Of a stretch of 51,314 bases of DNA, positions 7,530-51,277 are shown piece by piece (the first letter of the stretch is position 1; each line of letters opens with the position of its first letter). The stretch comes from Haloarcula japonica DSM 6131 (GTDB lineage Archaea > Halobacteriota > Halobacteria > Halobacteriales > Haloarculaceae), in assembly GCF_000336635.1 (NCBI RefSeq), contig NZ_AOLY01000037.1, forward strand, positions 1 through 51,314, written 5' to 3'. A program made the position numbers and the translations under genes. A model generated the notes under the pieces. That model did not search any database. It had not been told where the DNA came from and worked only from the letters and a program-made list of their open reading frames with translations.

Positions 7530-8764
7530 TGGACACCGGCGAAAGCGTGCGCATCACGCTCCGATCTATCAGGGCCCACAAGCTCCGGTCGGCACTGACG
7601 GTCGTCGGGGTCGTCATCGGCATCGCGTCGGTCATCACCTTCGCCACCTTCGGGGCCAGCGTCGAGGCCGAGATCGTCGGCGACATCGAGACGTCGAACG
7701 CGGGCAATATCTACGTGTTCGGCACCCCGGCAGGCGACGACGACTTCGACCGGACGCTCCAGCCGGTGTTTACCGAGTACGACATTCAGCAGTTAGAGGA
7801 AATTGCAGGGGTACAGGCGGTGCTTCCGCGTGGTATCGTCCAGACACAGTCGGTTCGGCATGGGAACCAGACGCTGGCCAGACAGCAGGTCACGGCGGTG
7901 CGACCGGCCAGCTTCACGCAGGGTGTTCTCGTCGAGGGTCGGTCCTTCGGTGCTGACGAGGAGGCCGTCGTGGTCAACGAGCGCATGGCCGGGTCGTTCT
8001 CCGAGAACCTCACGACCGGCGAACGCCTCACCATGACGATGCCCGACGGCGGCGAGCGTAACGTCACCGTCGTCGGCGTCGTCAACGGGACGCGCGGAGA
8101 GGTGCCGGTCAGCGAATTCGCCCGCCAGCCGCGGGTGTACGTCCCAATCGACCCGTTCTACGAGTCGGTCGTCGAGAGTCCGTCAGTGGGCGTGCGTCAG
8201 CGCGCGTACCCACAAGTGACGCTCGTCATCGACCCGCGTGAGATTCCGGAAACGCAGTCGGCGATTCAGACGTACCTCTCCGGTGAGTCCGACGCGCGGT
8301 CGCTGTCGGCCGACGACACGGAACTGGTCGCCCGGTCCGGGAACGACTTCGTCGAGGAGATCAGCGACGTCATCGAGCGCATCACGCGCTTTGTCACCGG
8401 CATCGCCGTTATCGCGCTCGTCGTCGGCGCTATCGGTATCGCCAACGTGATGCTCGTTAGCGTCACCGAACGGACCCGCGAGATCGGCATCATGAAAGCC
8501 GTCGGGGCGCGCAACCGCGACGTGATGCAGGTGTTCCTCGTCGAGGCCGCACTGCTGGGGACAATCGGCTCGCTGCTCGGCGTCCCGCTGGGCCTCCTCG
8601 TCGGCTACGGGGCGACGAGGTACGCCGAAGTCACGTTCTCACTTGCGCCGCTGTGGATGGGGCTTGCGGTCGGCGTCGGTGTGCTGGTCGGCGTCGTCGC
8701 CGGCCTCTACCCGGCGTGGCGAGCGGCCCGGGTCGATCCTATCGACGCGCTCAGACACGAGTAA
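7529..8764 (+). CDS. MacB-type ABC transporter permease (FtsX domain)
   Basis: The 411-residue protein has one membrane helix near residues 18-40, a large extracytoplasmic MacB-PCD domain (about 45-275), and a C-terminal FtsX core with three membrane helices (about 285-310, 335-360, 370-395). The cytoplasmic motif TEREIGIMKAVGA-like segment (TERTREIGIMKAVGARNRD) is the coupling helix region. It pairs with the ATPase in front of it; start and stop overlap by one base. Confidence 0.92.
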
Positions 8765-8816
8765 CGCTTACCGGGATTCAGAACACCGAAATACGTGGTC
8801 GCCGAACCACCGGTCG

Positions 8817-9296
8817 ATGACCCTCTCGGAGGAGGCCCGCGAACGGCTCGCCGACATCGTCGAACTCCAGCCGACCAAAAACGGCGAGTTACAGGAGCGC
8901 TGGGACATGGACAGCGGCAGCGAGGTCCACCAGTACCTCGAATCCGAACTCAAGGAGTACTACTACCGCGACGACAACAGCCTCATCTGTGCGACGCCGG
9001 AGGCGACGACGCTCATCGACGGGGAGGACTCCGAGCGGATTCAGACGGTGACGGTCACCCCGCTCCAGCAGGCTATCGTCGACGTGATCGCCGGGCCGGA
9101 CGAGGAGAGCCAGAGCGTCGTCGCCGTGTTACACGCCCTCCGCGAGGTCGGCGAGGACCGCGACACCGACGACGTCCGCTCCGCGCTTCGGAGCCTCGCA
9201 GACAAGGGGATCGTGGAGACGGTCGAGAAGACCGTGCCCACGTTTAGGCTGGCCGTGCCGCGGGACGAACTGGACATCGAACTGTCCGAAGAGTGA
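8817..9296 (+). CDS. DUF5797 family protein (winged-helix-like)
   Basis: A 159-residue protein with an N-terminal helix-turn-helix-like segment (ERLADIVELQPTKNGELQ), a middle helical region rich in Tyr and acidic residues (YLESELKEYYYRDDN) and a C-terminal winged-helix-like repeat (ALRSLADKGIVETVEKT). It matches the haloarchaeal DUF5797 family by memory. A role in transcription control is suggested by the two wHTH-like modules but is not shown. It lies 52 bases after the MacB gene on the same strand. Confidence 0.7.
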   Translation: MTLSEEARERLADIVELQPTKNGELQERWDMDSGSEVHQYLESELKEYYYRDDNSLICATPEATTLIDGEDSERIQTVTVTPLQQAIVDVIAGPDEESQSVVAVLHALREVGEDRDTDDVRSALRSLADKGIVETVEKTVPTFRLAVPRDELDIELSEE

Positions 9297-9319
9297 GTCC
9301 GGACTGCGGTGTCGGTCTG

Positions 9320-10345
9320 TCACTCAGTCAGTCCCGGCCGCTGTCGCCGTCGCCGCCGTTCTAACACCCGTTGTATTGCCTTGCCTGGTCCGCCGTCGAG
9401 CGGCCACGCCTTCGACCGCCACGCCGGCGGCTCCGGCTCGTAGGACGGGCACTGCCCCCGACACTCCGCCGCTGTCGGCAGACAGTCTTTCGCCGCACAG
9501 TGGGGAAATACGCCAGTCTCGTCGGCGCTGAACTGGAAGTACCTGCAATCAGGGCGCATCGTGTTCGCGTACGCGCGCCAGCCGCGAGCGTACGCCCGCT
9601 CGGCGATAGCGAGCCGCCGCTCTCGCTTCCAGTCGGGGTCCGCGTACTCGAACTGCGCCGCGCTGGTGTCGTCATCCGGCCGGTCCAGAATGCGCGTTCC
9701 CGTCTCGTCGACTGACAGCGACCGCGGCTGCCAGACCGCCTCGGCCGTACCCTTTTCGGGATCGACAGTCAGTACGCCGGCGGCCGCGGGCAGATCGGCC
9801 AACAGAACCGGTTCCACGCGCTCGTCGGTCGCCGCCGTCGCCACCCACACCTCGTCGGCCAGCGACAGCGCGATGTCCCGCTGTAGTTGTGGGACGAGGT
9901 TCCTGGCGGCGCTGGCAGTGAGGTCGGGCTTGTTCTCGATGGCGATGATCCGCCGGAGCCAATTCGGATAGGGACGCACCCGACGGATTTCGATCCGGTT
10001 GCCGCGCTTGCGGGTCTCAATGGCATCACGGTCGGCCGCCTCGTGAATCGACTCCCGGACGTACCGCCACGGGTAGCCCGGGTCGGGGAGTACATCGCGG
10101 TAGTACGTCCAGTCGGCCGGCGCGTTCTGCAGGACGTGCAAGAGGTCTGAGTCGAATGATTCCGCTCCGAACTTCGCTCGCTCGCGGAGCCCGGCCGGGT
10201 CACACTCCAGCACAATCGTGTCCCAGCGGCGGTGTTTCGTTCCGAGCTGTCTGGCGACTAGGACCGCCGCGTCGTCGGCCGGCGACCACGCTCGCTCGAC
10301 CCACTGGCAGACTGCCAGCTCGAAAGCGAACTCGGAGCCGGTCAT
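9320..10345 (-). CDS. DUF5787 family protein
   Basis: The 341-residue protein opens with FAFELAVCQWVERAW and contains a possible nuclease-like core (IVLECD near 43-48; IIAIENKPDLT near 130-140, where Glu-x-Lys resembles a PD-(D/E)xK site). The C-terminal region holds several cysteines and histidines (PHCAAKDC, CRGQCPSY) that could bind metal. The family is haloarchaeal and uncharacterised. The E-N-K motif with upstream acids makes a restriction-fold nuclease plausible. A TATA-like box at 10366-10374 gives an essentially leaderless ATG. Confidence 0.7.
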   Translation of the reverse strand: MTGSEFAFELAVCQWVERAWSPADDAAVLVARQLGTKHRRWDTIVLECDPAGLRERAKFGAESFDSDLLHVLQNAPADWTYYRDVLPDPGYPWRYVRESIHEAADRDAIETRKRGNRIEIRRVRPYPNWLRRIIAIENKPDLTASAARNLVPQLQRDIALSLADEVWVATAATDERVEPVLLADLPAAAGVLTVDPEKGTAEAVWQPRSLSVDETGTRILDRPDDDTSAAQFEYADPDWKRERRLAIAERAYARGWRAYANTMRPDCRYFQFSADETGVFPHCAAKDCLPTAAECRGQCPSYEPEPPAWRSKAWPLDGGPGKAIQRVLERRRRRQRPGLTE

Positions 10346-45457: not shown

Positions 45458-45528
45458 GGGACCGTGGGGTAGCGGTATCCTCGGCGGATGGGGTCCGTCG
45501 GACCTGAGTTCGAATCTCGGCGGTCCCA
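45458..45528 (+). tRNA. tRNA-Pro(GGG)
   Basis: A 71-base cloverleaf folds by eye: acceptor GGGACCG/CGGTCCC (7 perfect pairs), anticodon stem GGCGG/CCGTC with anticodon GGG at 45490-45492 behind T33, T-stem CTGAG/CTCGG around TTCGAAT, discriminator A45528. There is no encoded CCA and no intron. Its 3' part (45516-45528) is also part of the element's attachment core, so integration has rebuilt rather than destroyed the gene. Confidence 0.95.
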
Positions 45529-45534
45529 CTTCAA
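45516..45534 (+). repeat. Attachment site attL
   Basis: CTCGGCGGTCCCACTTCAA covers the 3' half of the T-stem, the acceptor 3' strand, the discriminator and six bases beyond. It is identical to 51124-51142. Confidence 0.92.
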
Positions 45535-45550
45535 CTTCTACCAGATGCCG

Positions 45551-45570
45551 ACACCTGTACGCTTAGGTGT
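45551..45570. repeat. Inverted repeat beside attL
   Basis: ACACCT (45551-45556) and AGGTGT (45565-45570) are separated by 8 bases, 17 bases inside the element. It could be an integrase arm-binding site or an RNA hairpin. Confidence 0.3.
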
Positions 45571-45652
45571 GCGAACGGTCAACTTCCTTCGCGTATTCGG
45601 CTGAAATTTAGTCGTTCTTTAAATACCGCTGAGAACCATAAGAAGTCTGTCA

Positions 45653-45668
45653 AGAAGCTACGGCTTCT
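45653..45668 (+). promoter_or_regulatory. Hairpin with UACG tetraloop
   Basis: AGAAGC-TACG-GCTTCT forms a 6-pair stem with a C(UACG)G loop, one of the most stable RNA tetraloops. It lies about 30-45 bases after a TATA-like TTTAAATA at 45618-45625, so it could sit at the 5' end of a transcript covering the zinc-ribbon gene. Confidence 0.4.
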
Positions 45669-45814
45669 GATCGAAATTCGGCGTCGTCAGCAGTGGCCGT
45701 ATCCACCCTGTGCGTTCGTTCCTGCAAGCCGACTCGTCGAGAACGGTGCGACTGATGCAGAGGTGCGCCGTGCAGTCCAAGCAGTCGACGACGAACTCGT
45801 TCGAGGTGGTTCCG

Positions 45815-46132
45815 ATGAGTGATGCAGAGAACCACGTAGAGCCGCCTGAGGACGGCGACGAGAGCGAGATACCGAACTCCGGCCCAAGCCCGGCAAGACG
45901 TGGTGCAACCCCTGACAACCTGCCAGAGGAACACAGGCCAAACCTCCCACACGTCGCGGATGGCGAGAGTACCGACTGGTCGCAGTACACGGCCTATCGG
46001 TGCTGCATCTGCCAAGACAACTGCATCAACAAGATCGACTCGGACTACGCTCGGGCGAGAGAGTGCCGCCACTGCTACGCAGTTCCGGCACTCGACCGAC
46101 ACAGTACCCACGACCCGGCGCTTGATCGGTAA
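45815..46132 (+). CDS. Small zinc-ribbon protein of the element
   Basis: The 105-residue protein has an acidic, proline-rich first half (DAENHVEPPEDGDESE) and a zinc-ribbon-like second half with CCICQDNC near 69-76 and CRHC near 91-94. It resembles small plasmid-borne zinc proteins that often accompany replication genes. The frame could begin at an upstream GTG (45710), but the ATG at 45815 overlaps the stop of the split gene and the composition changes there. A perfect hairpin begins at its stop codon. Confidence 0.7.
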   Translation: MSDAENHVEPPEDGDESEIPNSGPSPARRGATPDNLPEEHRPNLPHVADGESTDWSQYTAYRCCICQDNCINKIDSDYARARECRHCYAVPALDRHSTHDPALDR

Positions 46133-46554: not shown

Positions 46555-48396
46555 ATGACGTGCCGTGTGGACCCGCCCGGACACCTGGGCGGCCTCGACC
46601 TCGCCGATAGATGTAACACTCCCGTCTTAGCAGACCTTCTGGAAGAGCGCGATCTCCTCGGCCACGGCCAGTTGCTCGACGGAACACTGACCGAACGCGA
46701 TGAAGACCGCGTACGCATTGCGAAGTTCATTGCGGCGCATCCAGAGGGTACGCCGCTGTCGCACGTCGTTTCGTATGCTGTGAAGGGAGTGTCGCCAGAG
46801 ACGTGTGAGCGCGTCGACGGCTCGGACCCGGATTACCAGTTTGCATACCGTTTCATCGACGACCTTGTAGCCCCCGACGACCCGTACGTGCGGAAATCCC
46901 GGTCGTCAGGCGTTCTTTTCGTGACCCCGACACTGCGGCTTCTTGACTTGATTACAGAAGGCATTACTCAAACAACCCAGACAGAGGGCCTAACGTACGA
47001 CCGCGAGTTTCTGCGTAATTACCTCTCACGCGTGGATTTTGTGGATGATGACCTGCGCGAGTTGCTGAAGGACGGTTTTACATCCTACCTGAACCGCATC
47101 AAAGATTACAAACTGCTGTTCGATGTCCACTTCGTCGACCGGCGCGGAGGCGGATCAACACAGCGGATGACGAAGGACTACAAGACCCGGTTCAACGACC
47201 AGGGCCGCGTTTCCAAGCAGTTCGCACGGTTTAATGATGCACTCGAATACGGCTACGAAAACGCTGAGAACGCTGTGCTGGTGACGCTGACGACCGACCC
47301 GAAGCGCCAAGACTCGCTGCTTGACGGAATAGATTCGATAAACGAGAACTTCAACCGGCTGTTGTCGTATTTCGATTCGGACCCGTCGACGAAAGCCGAT
47401 ACCCGCGACCCGGATGTACCCGGTTGGCGTCCTGACCTCGACGACGACGTGACTGGGCGACCGCGTGACCGACCGGACTACATCAAGGCGCTGGAGTTCA
47501 CTGAGAAGGGATACCCGCACCTGCATGTGCTGTTTTTCGACGTGCCGACCCGTGAGAAAGACGGACTGCCGTGGCTGTGCGACAAGCCGGAAGTAGCCGC
47601 GAAATGGGCCGACTACGGCCAAGGCGAGATCGTCGACGTGTACCCGCTGACGTACCGCGATGACCTCGACGAGCTGGAACCAGAGTTCCAGAGCGACGAG
47701 GGCTTCGTCGACTGGTACAGGTTCGGCGACCACGATCACGGCGAAGAGTGGGTCCGAGAACGGACCCGCTCGCATGAGTTGATAGAGTTCGGCGACGACG
47801 GCCACGAAATGGAGTCAACGGCTGGCGCGTATCTCGGAAAGTACCTGAGCGCGACGTTCGGCTCGCTGCTCGACGCGACGGAGTCCTTCGAGCAGGGCGA
47901 CGACGACCGAGAGACGTACGCGGACAAAGCGGCGACGTGGAAGCTTGCGCTGTACTGGGCGACGAACCGACGGTTCTGGTCTTGCTCGGAGTCGATTACG
48001 GAAGGAATCGACCCGAACGACCACTTGCAAGACCCGGATGTGCGCGAAGCCGTGCGCTGGTGTTCGCTTGACTCAGTGCAAGCTGCAAGCGAGAGCGAGA
48101 TACGCGACGATCTCGCACGTCGGCAGTGGGACGACCTCGACGATCTCGACGCCGCCGTAGAGCGGGCGATTTCTGATGTAGAACAGCCACAGGTGCGTTC
48201 AACACTGCCGGAAGAGGCCTCATTCAGGTGTATTGTGGACTACATCGGTGCTTATGCGTACTGGGACCTCCCGAGTAGCGAGTTAGCCGATGGTTCGTAT
48301 GTCATCGAAACCACCGAGAACTATGTTGCTGATGACGACAGCTTGCCGATTGTCGACCGTGAGAACGACCCGCCAATAGTCGACGTGTGGTATTGA
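46555..48396 (+). CDS. Rolling-circle replication initiator (HUH Rep)
   Basis: The 613-residue protein has all three rolling-circle motifs: motif I VLVTLTTDPKR near 241-251, motif II HLH at 322-324 (GYPHLHVLFFD) for the metal ion, and motif III with Tyr426 and Tyr430 (AGAYLGKYLS), one being the nicking tyrosine. About 200 N-terminal residues precede motif I and about 180 follow motif III, making it larger than the small pGRB-type Reps. The ATG at 46555 is used; the frame is open from a TTG at 46441, but that extension is cysteine-rich and unlike the rest. Confidence 0.9.
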   Translation: MTCRVDPPGHLGGLDLADRCNTPVLADLLEERDLLGHGQLLDGTLTERDEDRVRIAKFIAAHPEGTPLSHVVSYAVKGVSPETCERVDGSDPDYQFAYRFIDDLVAPDDPYVRKSRSSGVLFVTPTLRLLDLITEGITQTTQTEGLTYDREFLRNYLSRVDFVDDDLRELLKDGFTSYLNRIKDYKLLFDVHFVDRRGGGSTQRMTKDYKTRFNDQGRVSKQFARFNDALEYGYENAENAVLVTLTTDPKRQDSLLDGIDSINENFNRLLSYFDSDPSTKADTRDPDVPGWRPDLDDDVTGRPRDRPDYIKALEFTEKGYPHLHVLFFDVPTREKDGLPWLCDKPEVAAKWADYGQGEIVDVYPLTYRDDLDELEPEFQSDEGFVDWYRFGDHDHGEEWVRERTRSHELIEFGDDGHEMESTAGAYLGKYLSATFGSLLDATESFEQGDDDRETYADKAATWKLALYWATNRRFWSCSESITEGIDPNDHLQDPDVREAVRWCSLDSVQAASESEIRDDLARRQWDDLDDLDAAVERAISDVEQPQVRSTLPEEASFRCIVDYIGAYAYWDLPSSELADGSYVIETTENYVADDDSLPIVDRENDPPIVDVWY

Positions 48397-48416: not shown

Positions 48417-49133
48417 CTAAAGAGGCAACTGAAGATAAAAATCCATAGAATAAGACAGTATACTGAAAATGCCAGTTTGGTACAACAAAGAAGCGAGTGC
48501 AACTAAAGCACCCAATATAGCAAAACGTTGCGGCCACGGTTCGTATTCCTCAACCACTGATTTCACGTGTATTTCTACTGTTGAAGACTCTTGGAAGGAG
48601 TCTAGTGTCCCACTATAAAGAAAAATAAATTGGAAATCATAATTTCCAGATTCAGCCTCTTCAGAAATATCTAATTCAATTTCCAGTGGTGCGTGGTCTC
48701 CCCAATCACCTTCTGAAATGATCGTTGGGTAAACTCGATCTTCAGCGTTTTCTCCGGGAGGAGATTCAAATGCTGGACTGTCAAAGAATATGAATTCAGA
48801 TGGATACATCGTACTTACATTAGCTTCTATATTATGCACAAAATGATTATTTTCTTCAAGAGCAGGTGCACCATATGAGATATTATCATCTTCATCTACA
48901 TGTAGTGGTACTGATATTGTTCCCCCGCTATCGGAGAGCAGAGAATCATAATCCACGAACGCTGTCATTTTAAATCGTTCAATTTCGCCATATCCAGTAA
49001 AGTAAACGCTAAACTTTGCTGTGCCACCTTTAGAAACGGAGACTCTTTTTGTTGAAGTGACAATTTGATAGTTCGGTTTAGTTGTAGGGACCCTTCGTTG
49101 TGGCCTTGCTTGAAATATGGTATTGTCGCTCAC
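48417..49133 (-). CDS. AT-rich element cargo protein with C-terminal membrane anchor
   Basis: The 238-residue protein has no recognised family. Residues about 25-185 are beta-rich (SVSKGGTAKFSVYFTG, LEIELDISEEAESGNYDF), like an Ig-type domain. Residues about 200-230 hold two hydrophobic stretches (FAILGALVALASLLY, IFSILSYSM) that anchor the C-terminus, with no N-terminal signal, so the main domain may stay in the cytosol. Base use is far richer in A and T than the rest of the window, a sign of recent transfer. The TATA-like ATTAATATATA at about 49155-49168 fits a leaderless GTG at 49133. Confidence 0.65.
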   Translation of the reverse strand: MSDNTIFQARPQRRVPTTKPNYQIVTSTKRVSVSKGGTAKFSVYFTGYGEIERFKMTAFVDYDSLLSDSGGTISVPLHVDEDDNISYGAPALEENNHFVHNIEANVSTMYPSEFIFFDSPAFESPPGENAEDRVYPTIISEGDWGDHAPLEIELDISEEAESGNYDFQFIFLYSGTLDSFQESSTVEIHVKSVVEEYEPWPQRFAILGALVALASLLYQTGIFSILSYSMDFYLQLPL

Positions 49134-49270: not shown

Positions 49271-49483
49271 CTATCCGTCGTCAGTCCACCAGACCCAACT
49301 ACGACCGGCCTGCTTACCGTTGATACGGCCTTCGGAGCGGAGTTCCTTTAGTCGTACTTGTGTTGCATTAGATTTGATCGGGAGCTGATCGACGACTTCG
49401 TTTGTAGACAAAACGGGATCGGAAGCCTGTTCTAAAACAGCGATGATTTCTTCATCAGTCACGTCTGGTTTTCGACCCGCCAT
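49271..49483 (-). CDS. Small winged-helix DNA-binding protein
   Basis: The 70-residue protein is a single wHTH: VTDEEIIAVLEQASDPVLS, NEVVDQLPIKSNATQVRLKELRSEG as helices 2-3, then a GRINGKQAGRSWVWW wing. Such phage and plasmid proteins act as repressors. It is divergent from the integrase gene and upstream of the cargo gene on the same strand. A TATA-like TTTATTTG about 27-34 bases before the ATG makes it leaderless. Confidence 0.75.
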   Translation of the reverse strand: MAGRKPDVTDEEIIAVLEQASDPVLSTNEVVDQLPIKSNATQVRLKELRSEGRINGKQAGRSWVWWTDDG

Positions 49484-49970
49484 TGTACCGTCTATCGGTT
49501 GTATGCGTCAAATAAACTCTGGTCTGCGGTATTATTATGATTAGGCCCATTACAGGTTTAGAAACCATTATTGTGTTACAGACTGATTTGTAGTTACGGA
49601 GGTCACACGGACTGCTGCAACAGTTCGGAAAACGCGGACCCGGTGCTGCAACACCGGCCCGCTGTGGCTCCCGTGAACCAGCCACGGAAGCATGTTAGCG
49701 AAAACAACCGCGAGGATTAAACCCCTCGCTCGACCCCGCCGGAGGTTGTCCGGTAGTCGTGTTAGTTTCTCAAGAGTGGATTCAGAAAGCCGGATAAACG
49801 CAGTAATCAGTGGGCCTAGCCCCACGGTTCCACTTTCACCCCACCGAGACGGTCCGGTTTATACGTCCAATCAGCAGTCACGAGTGGATGACTGCCCCGT
49901 CAAATCTGAAATCGGATTCGCTCGTCCGCCGTCGAATCAGTACCGGATGCCCCGTCCGAGGGGGACACCG
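49484..49970. other. Regulatory spacer before the integrase, 487 bases
   Basis: No gene is supported; open frames here (for example 49692 in frame with the integrase) lack protein-like composition. It contains the inverted repeats GGTTT/AAACC (49556-49567), two hairpins sharing the loop CTGCAA (49612-49657), and a nested pair ACAACC/GGTTGT (49704-49709 and 49744-49749) around GCGAGG/CCTCGC (49710-49715 and 49724-49729). Confidence 0.55.
49612..49657. repeat. Two hairpins with identical CTGCAA loops
   Basis: ACTG-CTGCAA-CAGT (49612-49625) and CCGGTG-CTGCAA-CACCGG (49640-49657) share the 10-base sequence TGCTGCAACA, 30 bases apart from start to start (about three helical turns). They lie between the wHTH and integrase genes and are candidate sites for the wHTH protein or the integrase. 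Confidence 0.5.
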
Positions 49971-51047
49971 ATGAGTGACGATCTCCAACCGCTTGCCCCG
50001 CGGCAAGCACTGGAGATGTGGATAGACCGGCAGAAAGCCGAGAAAGCCGACGAGACGGTTCAGAGTTACTACTACCGCGTTCGGCAGTTCGTCGACTGGC
50101 TCGACGAAGAGGGCATCGACAACCTGAACGACCTCACCGGGCGCGACGTGTTCCGGTACGACTCCGACCGCCGTGCTGACGGGCTGACGAAGAACGCCCT
50201 GAACACGCAACTCGGGACGATCAAACTGTTTCTGGACTTCTGCGTCGACGTAGAAGCTGTTCCGCCGGTACTGCCCGCGAAAGTCGACGTGCCGACCCTC
50301 TCGAAGGCAGAACGAGCGAACGAAGAGAAACTGACGGCGAACCGTGCTGAAACGATTCTGCACAAGCTGGAACAGTTCGACTACGCCAGCCGCGACCACA
50401 TGCTGTTCGCGCTGGCGTGGCATACTGGTGCTCGACTCGGTGCGCTTCGTGCGCTTGACCTGGACGACTGCTACCTGACCGACGACGATCTCGACCGACT
50501 GGCCCACCGGGACGGACTCACCGATGAGGAAATCAACCAGTTCGACGTTCCATTCGTCTACTTCCGCCACCGGCCTGAGACGGACACACCGCTGAAGAAT
50601 CAGGAGGATGGTGAGCGTCCGGTCGGCCTGTCCGAAGAGATCGGGCAGCTGCTCGAAGACTACATCGAAGTGACCCGTGTCGAGGTCGAGGACGAACACG
50701 AGCGCAAGCCGCTGTTCTCCAGCAAGCGCGGAACCGGTCGAATGTCGAAGGGCGCGATTCGTTCGCGGTTCAACATCGTCACCCAGCCGTGCCGTTTCGG
50801 GACGTGTCCCCACGACCGCGATACGGACACCTGCGAGGCGCTGGACCACGGTTATGAATCGCGTTGCCCGTCGGCCCGTTCTCCGCACCGGATACGGACT
50901 GGTTCGATTACGCATCACCGTGATGAAGGCTGGCCGCCGGAGGTGCTGGCCGAGCGTGTGAACGCGACTCCAGAGGTCATTCGCACGCATTACGACCAGC
51001 CGGACCTGCTGAAGCGGATGGAATCGCGCCGTAGCTACATCGACTAA
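49971..51047 (+). CDS. int: Tyrosine recombinase/integrase of the element
   Basis: The 358-residue protein has a SAM-like N-terminal domain (about 15-110, YYYRVRQFVDWLDEEGIDNL) and a catalytic domain with Arg155 (HTGARLGALRALD), His306-x-x-Arg309 (SPHRIR), His315 or His316 and nucleophile Tyr341 (IRTHYDQP). A four-cysteine cluster (Cys274, 279, 288, 299) just before His306 is not in typical XerC/D proteins. It resembles from memory the SNJ2-type haloarchaeal integrases. The gene runs toward attR and ends 76 bases before it. ATG at 49971 is preferred; 49947 is possible. Confidence 0.9.
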   Translation: MSDDLQPLAPRQALEMWIDRQKAEKADETVQSYYYRVRQFVDWLDEEGIDNLNDLTGRDVFRYDSDRRADGLTKNALNTQLGTIKLFLDFCVDVEAVPPVLPAKVDVPTLSKAERANEEKLTANRAETILHKLEQFDYASRDHMLFALAWHTGARLGALRALDLDDCYLTDDDLDRLAHRDGLTDEEINQFDVPFVYFRHRPETDTPLKNQEDGERPVGLSEEIGQLLEDYIEVTRVEVEDEHERKPLFSSKRGTGRMSKGAIRSRFNIVTQPCRFGTCPHDRDTDTCEALDHGYESRCPSARSPHRIRTGSITHHRDEGWPPEVLAERVNATPEVIRTHYDQPDLLKRMESRRSYID

Positions 51048-51067: not shown

Positions 51068-51217
51068 ATGAGTCACAACCACGACAACCCACGGATGAAC
51101 GAATCTAGAGACGAACCGCGGCACTCGGCGGTCCCACTTCAAAATTTTACGCAGGGAATACGACTGAACAGCAGTGGTCTCATGTCGACAGCGGGGGCTG
51201 GCTGCCACAGTGATTGA
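51068..51217 (+). pseudogene. 5' part of the gene split by integration
   Basis: An ATG 20 bases after the integrase stop opens a hydrophilic frame (MSHNHDNPRMNESRDEPRHS) that reads through the att core in the frame continued at 45535. In the integrated state it runs instead into host DNA and stops at 51215-51217 after 49 codons, 24 of them host-derived. Confidence 0.5.
51124..51142 (+). repeat. Attachment site attR
   Basis: Identical to 45516-45534 over 19 bases; the next base differs on each side. The host sequence continues from 51143 to the adapter. Confidence 0.92.
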
Positions 51218-51277
51218 CTGAAGCATCAATCAGACAGCGAAGGCGGAAGCAGGCAAGGTCTGACAGGAATTGTGAGG

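Follow-up and report, generated by a model that had tools for sequence, protein, structure and literature searches.

A gene split at the attachment site of a small integrated Haloarcula plasmid and its probable dependence on the topology of the element

A coding sequence that is embedded in attP, lies between the integrase gene (int) and a gene for a CxxC-motif protein, and is complete only when the element is circular was described in 2021 for pleolipovirus-like proviruses (Halfvol1, Halfgib1, Humcor, Harhisp1, SNJ2, and HRPV-9), and a regulatory role was proposed for it (PMC7911831, section 3.7). Wang and coworkers reported in 2026 that excision of SNJ2 creates orf26 across attP; those researchers showed by Western blotting of an ORF26-GFP fusion that orf26 is translated, and found that nonsense mutations in orf19 to orf26 stop the replication of SNJ2 and not its excision (PMC13107129). 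A coding sequence is also cut at the att site, as it is at the locus described here, when the suicidal archaeal integrases of SSV1, pTN3, and pT26-2 mediate integration (PMC8371274).

The window that we analyzed, a stretch of 51,314 nucleotides of Haloarcula japonica DSM 6131 (contig NZ_AOLY01000037.1), is best explained as containing an integrated 5.6-kb pleolipovirus-related plasmid. The target of integration is a tRNA-Pro(GGG) gene predicted by ARAGORN at positions 45458 to 45529 on the forward strand, and the element lies between two identical copies of a 19-bp core, CTCGGCGGTCCCACTTCAA, the attL core at 45516 to 45534 and the attR core at 51124 to 51142 on the same strand, with identity stopping at both core edges. 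A comparison with 32 Haloarcula genomes provided an empty site in genome G131, where the sequence directly after tRNA-Pro aligns to the host DNA to the right of attR (51143 to 51277, forward strand); thus, the boundaries of the element are real. Empty sites were also found for two related elements, in G020 for L041 and in G083 for L040. The excision junction, 51142 joined to 45535, which the preliminary description had put forward as a check, was sought in the assembly of the strain itself without success, as was the empty-site junction; a minority circle is still compatible with this result. The last letters of the contig (51278 to 51314, CTGTCTCTTATACACATCTCTGAGCGGGCTGGCAAGG) match the Nextera mosaic end plus adapter, and we take them to be uncleaned sequencing adapter and not genomic DNA.

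Within these boundaries, int (49971 to 51047, forward strand) is intact and encodes a 358-residue SNJ2-type tyrosine integrase, with SAM-like and Phage_integrase domains, the motifs ARLGALR, HRIR, HH, and Y, and 40% identity to IntSNJ2 with 100% of the query covered; the integrase of HHPV4 is also approximately 40% identical over its length. A 28-codon ORF at 49888 to 49974, kept only in the closest relatives, overlaps the start of int as ATGA, and a putative TATA box (TTTATA, 49858 to 49863, forward strand), kept in the four closest relatives, precedes this ORF by about 30 nucleotides. The replication protein (46555 to 48396, forward strand) is of the HUH rolling-circle type and is related to the Rep of alphapleolipoviruses (phrog_12863, E = 5.5e-286), with 41% identity to HRPV-2/HRPV-6 and 54% identity to Halfgib1. 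The remaining predicted genes comprise an ORF for a protein with two CxxC motifs, CCIC and CRHC (45815 to 46132, forward strand; PHROG 34929, E = 1.6e-11), a winged-HTH regulator (49271 to 49483, reverse strand; PHROG 18890, E = 1.1e-5), and an accessory ORF from the ORF list with no family match in Pfam or PHROGs (48417 to 49133, reverse strand). Searches of Pfam and PHROGs gave no structural family for any ORF of the element, spike and internal membrane proteins included, and we do not assign the element to the Pleolipoviridae. Elements in tRNA-Ala(GGC) genes (L087, L092 to L098, and L101) carry Reps that are 78 to 90% identical; no integrase of the SNJ2 type was found near them.

When the ends of the element are joined in silico, as excision would join them, a single frame of 120 codons runs from the ATG at 51068 through the core to the TGA at 45820 to 45822. 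The 5' part, at 51068 to 51142, holds codons 1 to 25, the last seven of which (19 to 25) contain the core, and the 3' part, at 45535 to 45822, holds codons 26 to 120 and the stop, both on the forward strand. The ATG lies 20 nucleotides past the end of int, the stop overlaps the start of the CxxC ORF (ATG at 45815) as ATGAGTGA, and on one strand of the circle int is followed by the attP-bridging gene, the CxxC gene, and rep. The joining reproduced the 19-bp cores, the 5608-bp circle, and the uninterrupted frame of the preliminary description, whose coordinates for the start after int and for the overlap with the next gene were also borne out; its proposal that integration parts the start beside int from the 3' end, splitting a neighboring gene and not the integrase, agrees with the intact int, with the layout kept in relatives, and with that published for pleolipoviruses. 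In the integrated state, the nearest upstream stop of the left frame is at 45505, within the tRNA gene. The claim that this left part has no start codon at all holds upstream of the conserved 3' domain, where there is no ATG, GTG, or TTG, but not for its full length, since a GTG at 45763, near the 3' end, is its sole standard start. The joined protein matched nothing in Pfam and only a 15-residue stretch in PHROGs (E = 0.06), and the search for the 120-residue product in free plasmids that had been suggested gave no whole-protein homologue in plasmid records; viral contigs scanned with the joined protein and with the integrase contained no relatives. The predicted structure was too poor (mean pLDDT of 47, low confidence) for a fold search.

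Seven further elements from Haloarcula and related genera have the same joined frame in the same phase through the core, which is translated as S/T-A-V-P in all of them, with the ATG about 7 to 20 nucleotides after int and joined lengths of 120 (L040, L041, L042, and L043), 116 (L046 and L148), and 100 (L047) residues. Over the eight elements, stops number 0 of 593 codons in the coding frame and 33 and 35 of 577 in the other two, counts to be read in the knowledge that the frame was picked as open and that the elements are related. When the parts outside the core and the conserved 3' module were shuffled, 3.7% of the outcomes for our element still had an open frame, as did 3 to 8% per frame across elements. 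When neutral substitution was simulated as far as L046, L047, and L148 have diverged (39 to 46%), the combined probability that all three would be open, as they are, was about 5.5e-4, a rough value obtained with substitutions only, a star phylogeny, and the three elements treated as independent. The joined frame thus appears to be open beyond neutral expectation, roughly at the 5e-4 level. The 3' module is lost in L086 and L102, where a longer open frame continues instead, and in L089, where the frame is shifted. In a second integrase clade of four elements (those in G322, G348, and G393 and the second element of G125), a bridging frame is likewise open and ends at the next gene; the distance from int to the tRNA gene is at least 27 kb in G322 and G125.

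The conserved 3' module, which we call ASRL (WPYPPCAFVPASRLVENGATDAEVRRAVQAVDDE; 45694 to 45819, forward strand), differs from the remainder of the joined gene in the selection acting on it. Among the five closest elements, codons 80 to 120 have a pN/pS of 0.20, with differences at the three codon positions of 12/12/54, and this end is therefore a real protein segment. The corresponding pN/pS values are 1.07 for the 5' part, 1.34 for codons 26 to 39 (19/8/4, with third positions least variable), and 2.26, from few changes, for codons 58 to 79. With ratios of about 1 or more and third positions so little variable in codons 26 to 39, the part that spans attP is without visible protein constraint; on these substitution patterns, the stretch looks like a tolerated linker, open but free in sequence, and codons 26 to 39, into which the inverted repeat CACCTGTACGCTTAGGTG (a hairpin) falls, look constrained as DNA. 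The earlier impression that the 3' end of the left part is coding is sustained for ASRL; protein-level constraint is demonstrable in this segment alone and not in the N-terminal part across attP.

The pattern in codons 26 to 39 is what would be expected if the attP frame were incidental and its flanks were conserved as DNA, as integrase arm sites, hairpin, and promoter, and a block after the core does persist in G230 and G360 where no rep or int adjoins it. We nevertheless regard this explanation as very improbable, as it is opposed by the phase kept at 39 to 46% nucleotide divergence, by the selection on ASRL, and by the experiments in which the counterpart from SNJ2 was translated (PMC13107129). 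The blocks in G230 and G360, like one in the flank to the right of L043, seem to be remnants; native host DNA as the origin of the conserved block was rejected, as the sequence at this place is unrelated in most Haloarcula genomes.

Another possible reading is a translational relay. The frame would be kept open mainly for ribosomes that reinitiate after int and are handed on to the CxxC gene and rep, the attP peptide would be functionless, and the split would uncouple the downstream genes from int. The short distance between int and the ATG, the overlap of the stop with the next start, and an open frame whose attP-spanning amino acids drift all fit such a relay, and the block in replication that follows a nonsense mutation in any gene of the SNJ2 operon (PMC13107129) could be explained by polarity too. 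We consider the relay unlikely, however: purifying selection on the ASRL end is clear, and our element offers that end no other standard start, so that at least this part is a protein; moreover, the CxxC gene and rep are separated by about 420 bp, which weakens any coupling to rep.

In the tRNA-Pro clade, ASRL can be reached from a standard start solely through the attP-bridging frame. Between the core and ASRL, six of the eight elements have no ATG, GTG, or TTG, and the single candidates in the other two, a GTG in L148 and a TTG in L046, are far upstream of ASRL and upstream of a TATA-box-like sequence, TTTAAATA (45618 to 45625, forward strand), that lies inside the 3' part and is conserved in most relatives; from this site to the ASRL motif, none of the eight has a standard start. 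The TATA-like sequence might serve the CxxC gene and rep as a promoter. Alternatively, a transcript begun at this sequence, or a non-standard start at CTG 45601 or CTG 45667, could allow ASRL to be translated in the integrated state too, as a shortened product that is not switched off; seven of the eight elements indeed have CTG as codon 48, and L047 has it as codon 49. Given the lack of standard starts, we hold this to be quite improbable for the tRNA-Pro elements, even though ASRL occurs elsewhere as a gene of its own: it is a stand-alone small ORF with in-frame GTG codons ahead of it in the related rep-bearing tRNA-Ala elements, and the motif is found in SNJ2 gp24 (E = 7e-5; matches are weaker in HHPV4 and HRPV-9), a separate small ORF with its own ATG. 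The preliminary description had named homologues of the left part that start inside the element as evidence against a split gene; for the ASRL domain, these separate ORFs, which can start inside the element, partly supply such evidence. We infer that the tRNA-Pro gene may be an orf26-like bridging ORF fused to an orf24-like module.

Intact bridging ORFs were encountered in circles of other families and at a hybrid junction and not in a circle of our own element. In G125, a second SNJ2-type int stands directly before the left end of a relative (L040), and an ATG about 30 nucleotides after it opens a frame that runs through the core to the ASRL end, giving a 123-residue hybrid that is intact in the chromosome. 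The proposal that the gene is produced only when the element is circular must therefore be amended, since tandem insertion can restore it within the chromosome. The locus (G125:C3, about 8459 to 9947, with a left end near 129222) apparently holds two different SNJ2-type elements in tandem in one tRNA-Pro gene. The free plasmid of Haloarcula marina (NZ_CP100406; 18,001 bp) has an intact 48-residue ORF across the tRNA-Pro core, of a different family and with the core read in another frame; the region after its int is partly duplicated (8403 to 8706), with two core copies 157 nucleotides apart. The same 48-residue ORF is present in G247 at one core of paired identical int ends. These int-plus-core copies (G247:C1, 677 to 1775 and 18523 to 19621) are 17,846 bp apart, a spacing near enough to the size of the plasmid to suggest a chromosomal form of the H. 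marina type. Plasmid pHK2 has an 80-residue ORF that starts 2 nucleotides after int, and bridging ORFs are also open in SNJ2, HHPV4, HRPV-9, Halfgib1, and Humcor2.

Taken together, these observations lead us to favor, with moderate confidence, a topology-gated gene in an int-to-rep operon. In the circle, transcription and translation from int would pass through the bridging gene into the replication genes, and the 3' ASRL module would be the functional part; integration would take the start codon and the upstream transcription away from this module and silence it. As int stays whole in the integrant, self-encoded excision would still be possible, and with ASRL silenced and int retained, the bridging gene could serve as a sensor of topology, active in circles and at tandem junctions and inactive in single integrants. 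That the gene is expressed, that it belongs to an operon, and that it serves replication or maintenance is suggested here by analogy with SNJ2 orf26 and orf24. The preliminary description had suggested an excision or copy-control factor; in SNJ2, replication requires the positional counterpart, and excision does not (PMC13107129). A stronger version, possible but doubtful, is that the bridging ORF captured the ASRL module of the replication operon, so that a replication or copy-control protein is itself split and is reassembled by excision or tandem insertion, hybrids included; were it true, the plasmid would sense both whether it is circular or integrated and whether a second element has arrived. 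The topology-gated reading would carry a recently described switch, a gene readable only in the circle, over from pleolipoviruses to an integrative plasmid of 5.6 kb whose Rep is a different one. With a joined gene, orthologues in split form, and a hybrid junction between tandem elements, one can ask in a simple system whether the protein or only the open frame matters.

Comparison with described systems places the locus among them. Like the bridging sequences of pleolipovirus-like proviruses (PMC7911831), the gene starts just past int, contains attP, and ends beside or overlapping the CxxC gene, all on one strand; the ASRL module at its 3' end makes it longer, and the element differs from those proviruses in its size of 5.6 kb and in its lack of recognized virion genes. 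With SNJ2, it shares the integrase type, an ORF formed across attP after int that links int to the replication genes, and the ASRL motif, whereas SNJ2 has Rep-Arvir where our element has an HUH-type Rep, and its orf26 and its ASRL gene (gp24) are two ORFs where ours is one. Unlike the case of the SSV-type suicidal integrases, the gene that is cut is not int, which ends at 51047, ahead of the core at 51124. The free circles of pHK2 and H. marina also have an SNJ2-type int followed by an intact ORF, but their bridging proteins are unrelated in sequence to ours and lack ASRL. Given the published provirus layout and SNJ2 orf26, the arrangement is already known in salt-lake viruses, and ours is a well-supported further example and not a new type of switch, distinguished by its fused ASRL module and by its setting in a small plasmid with an HUH Rep.
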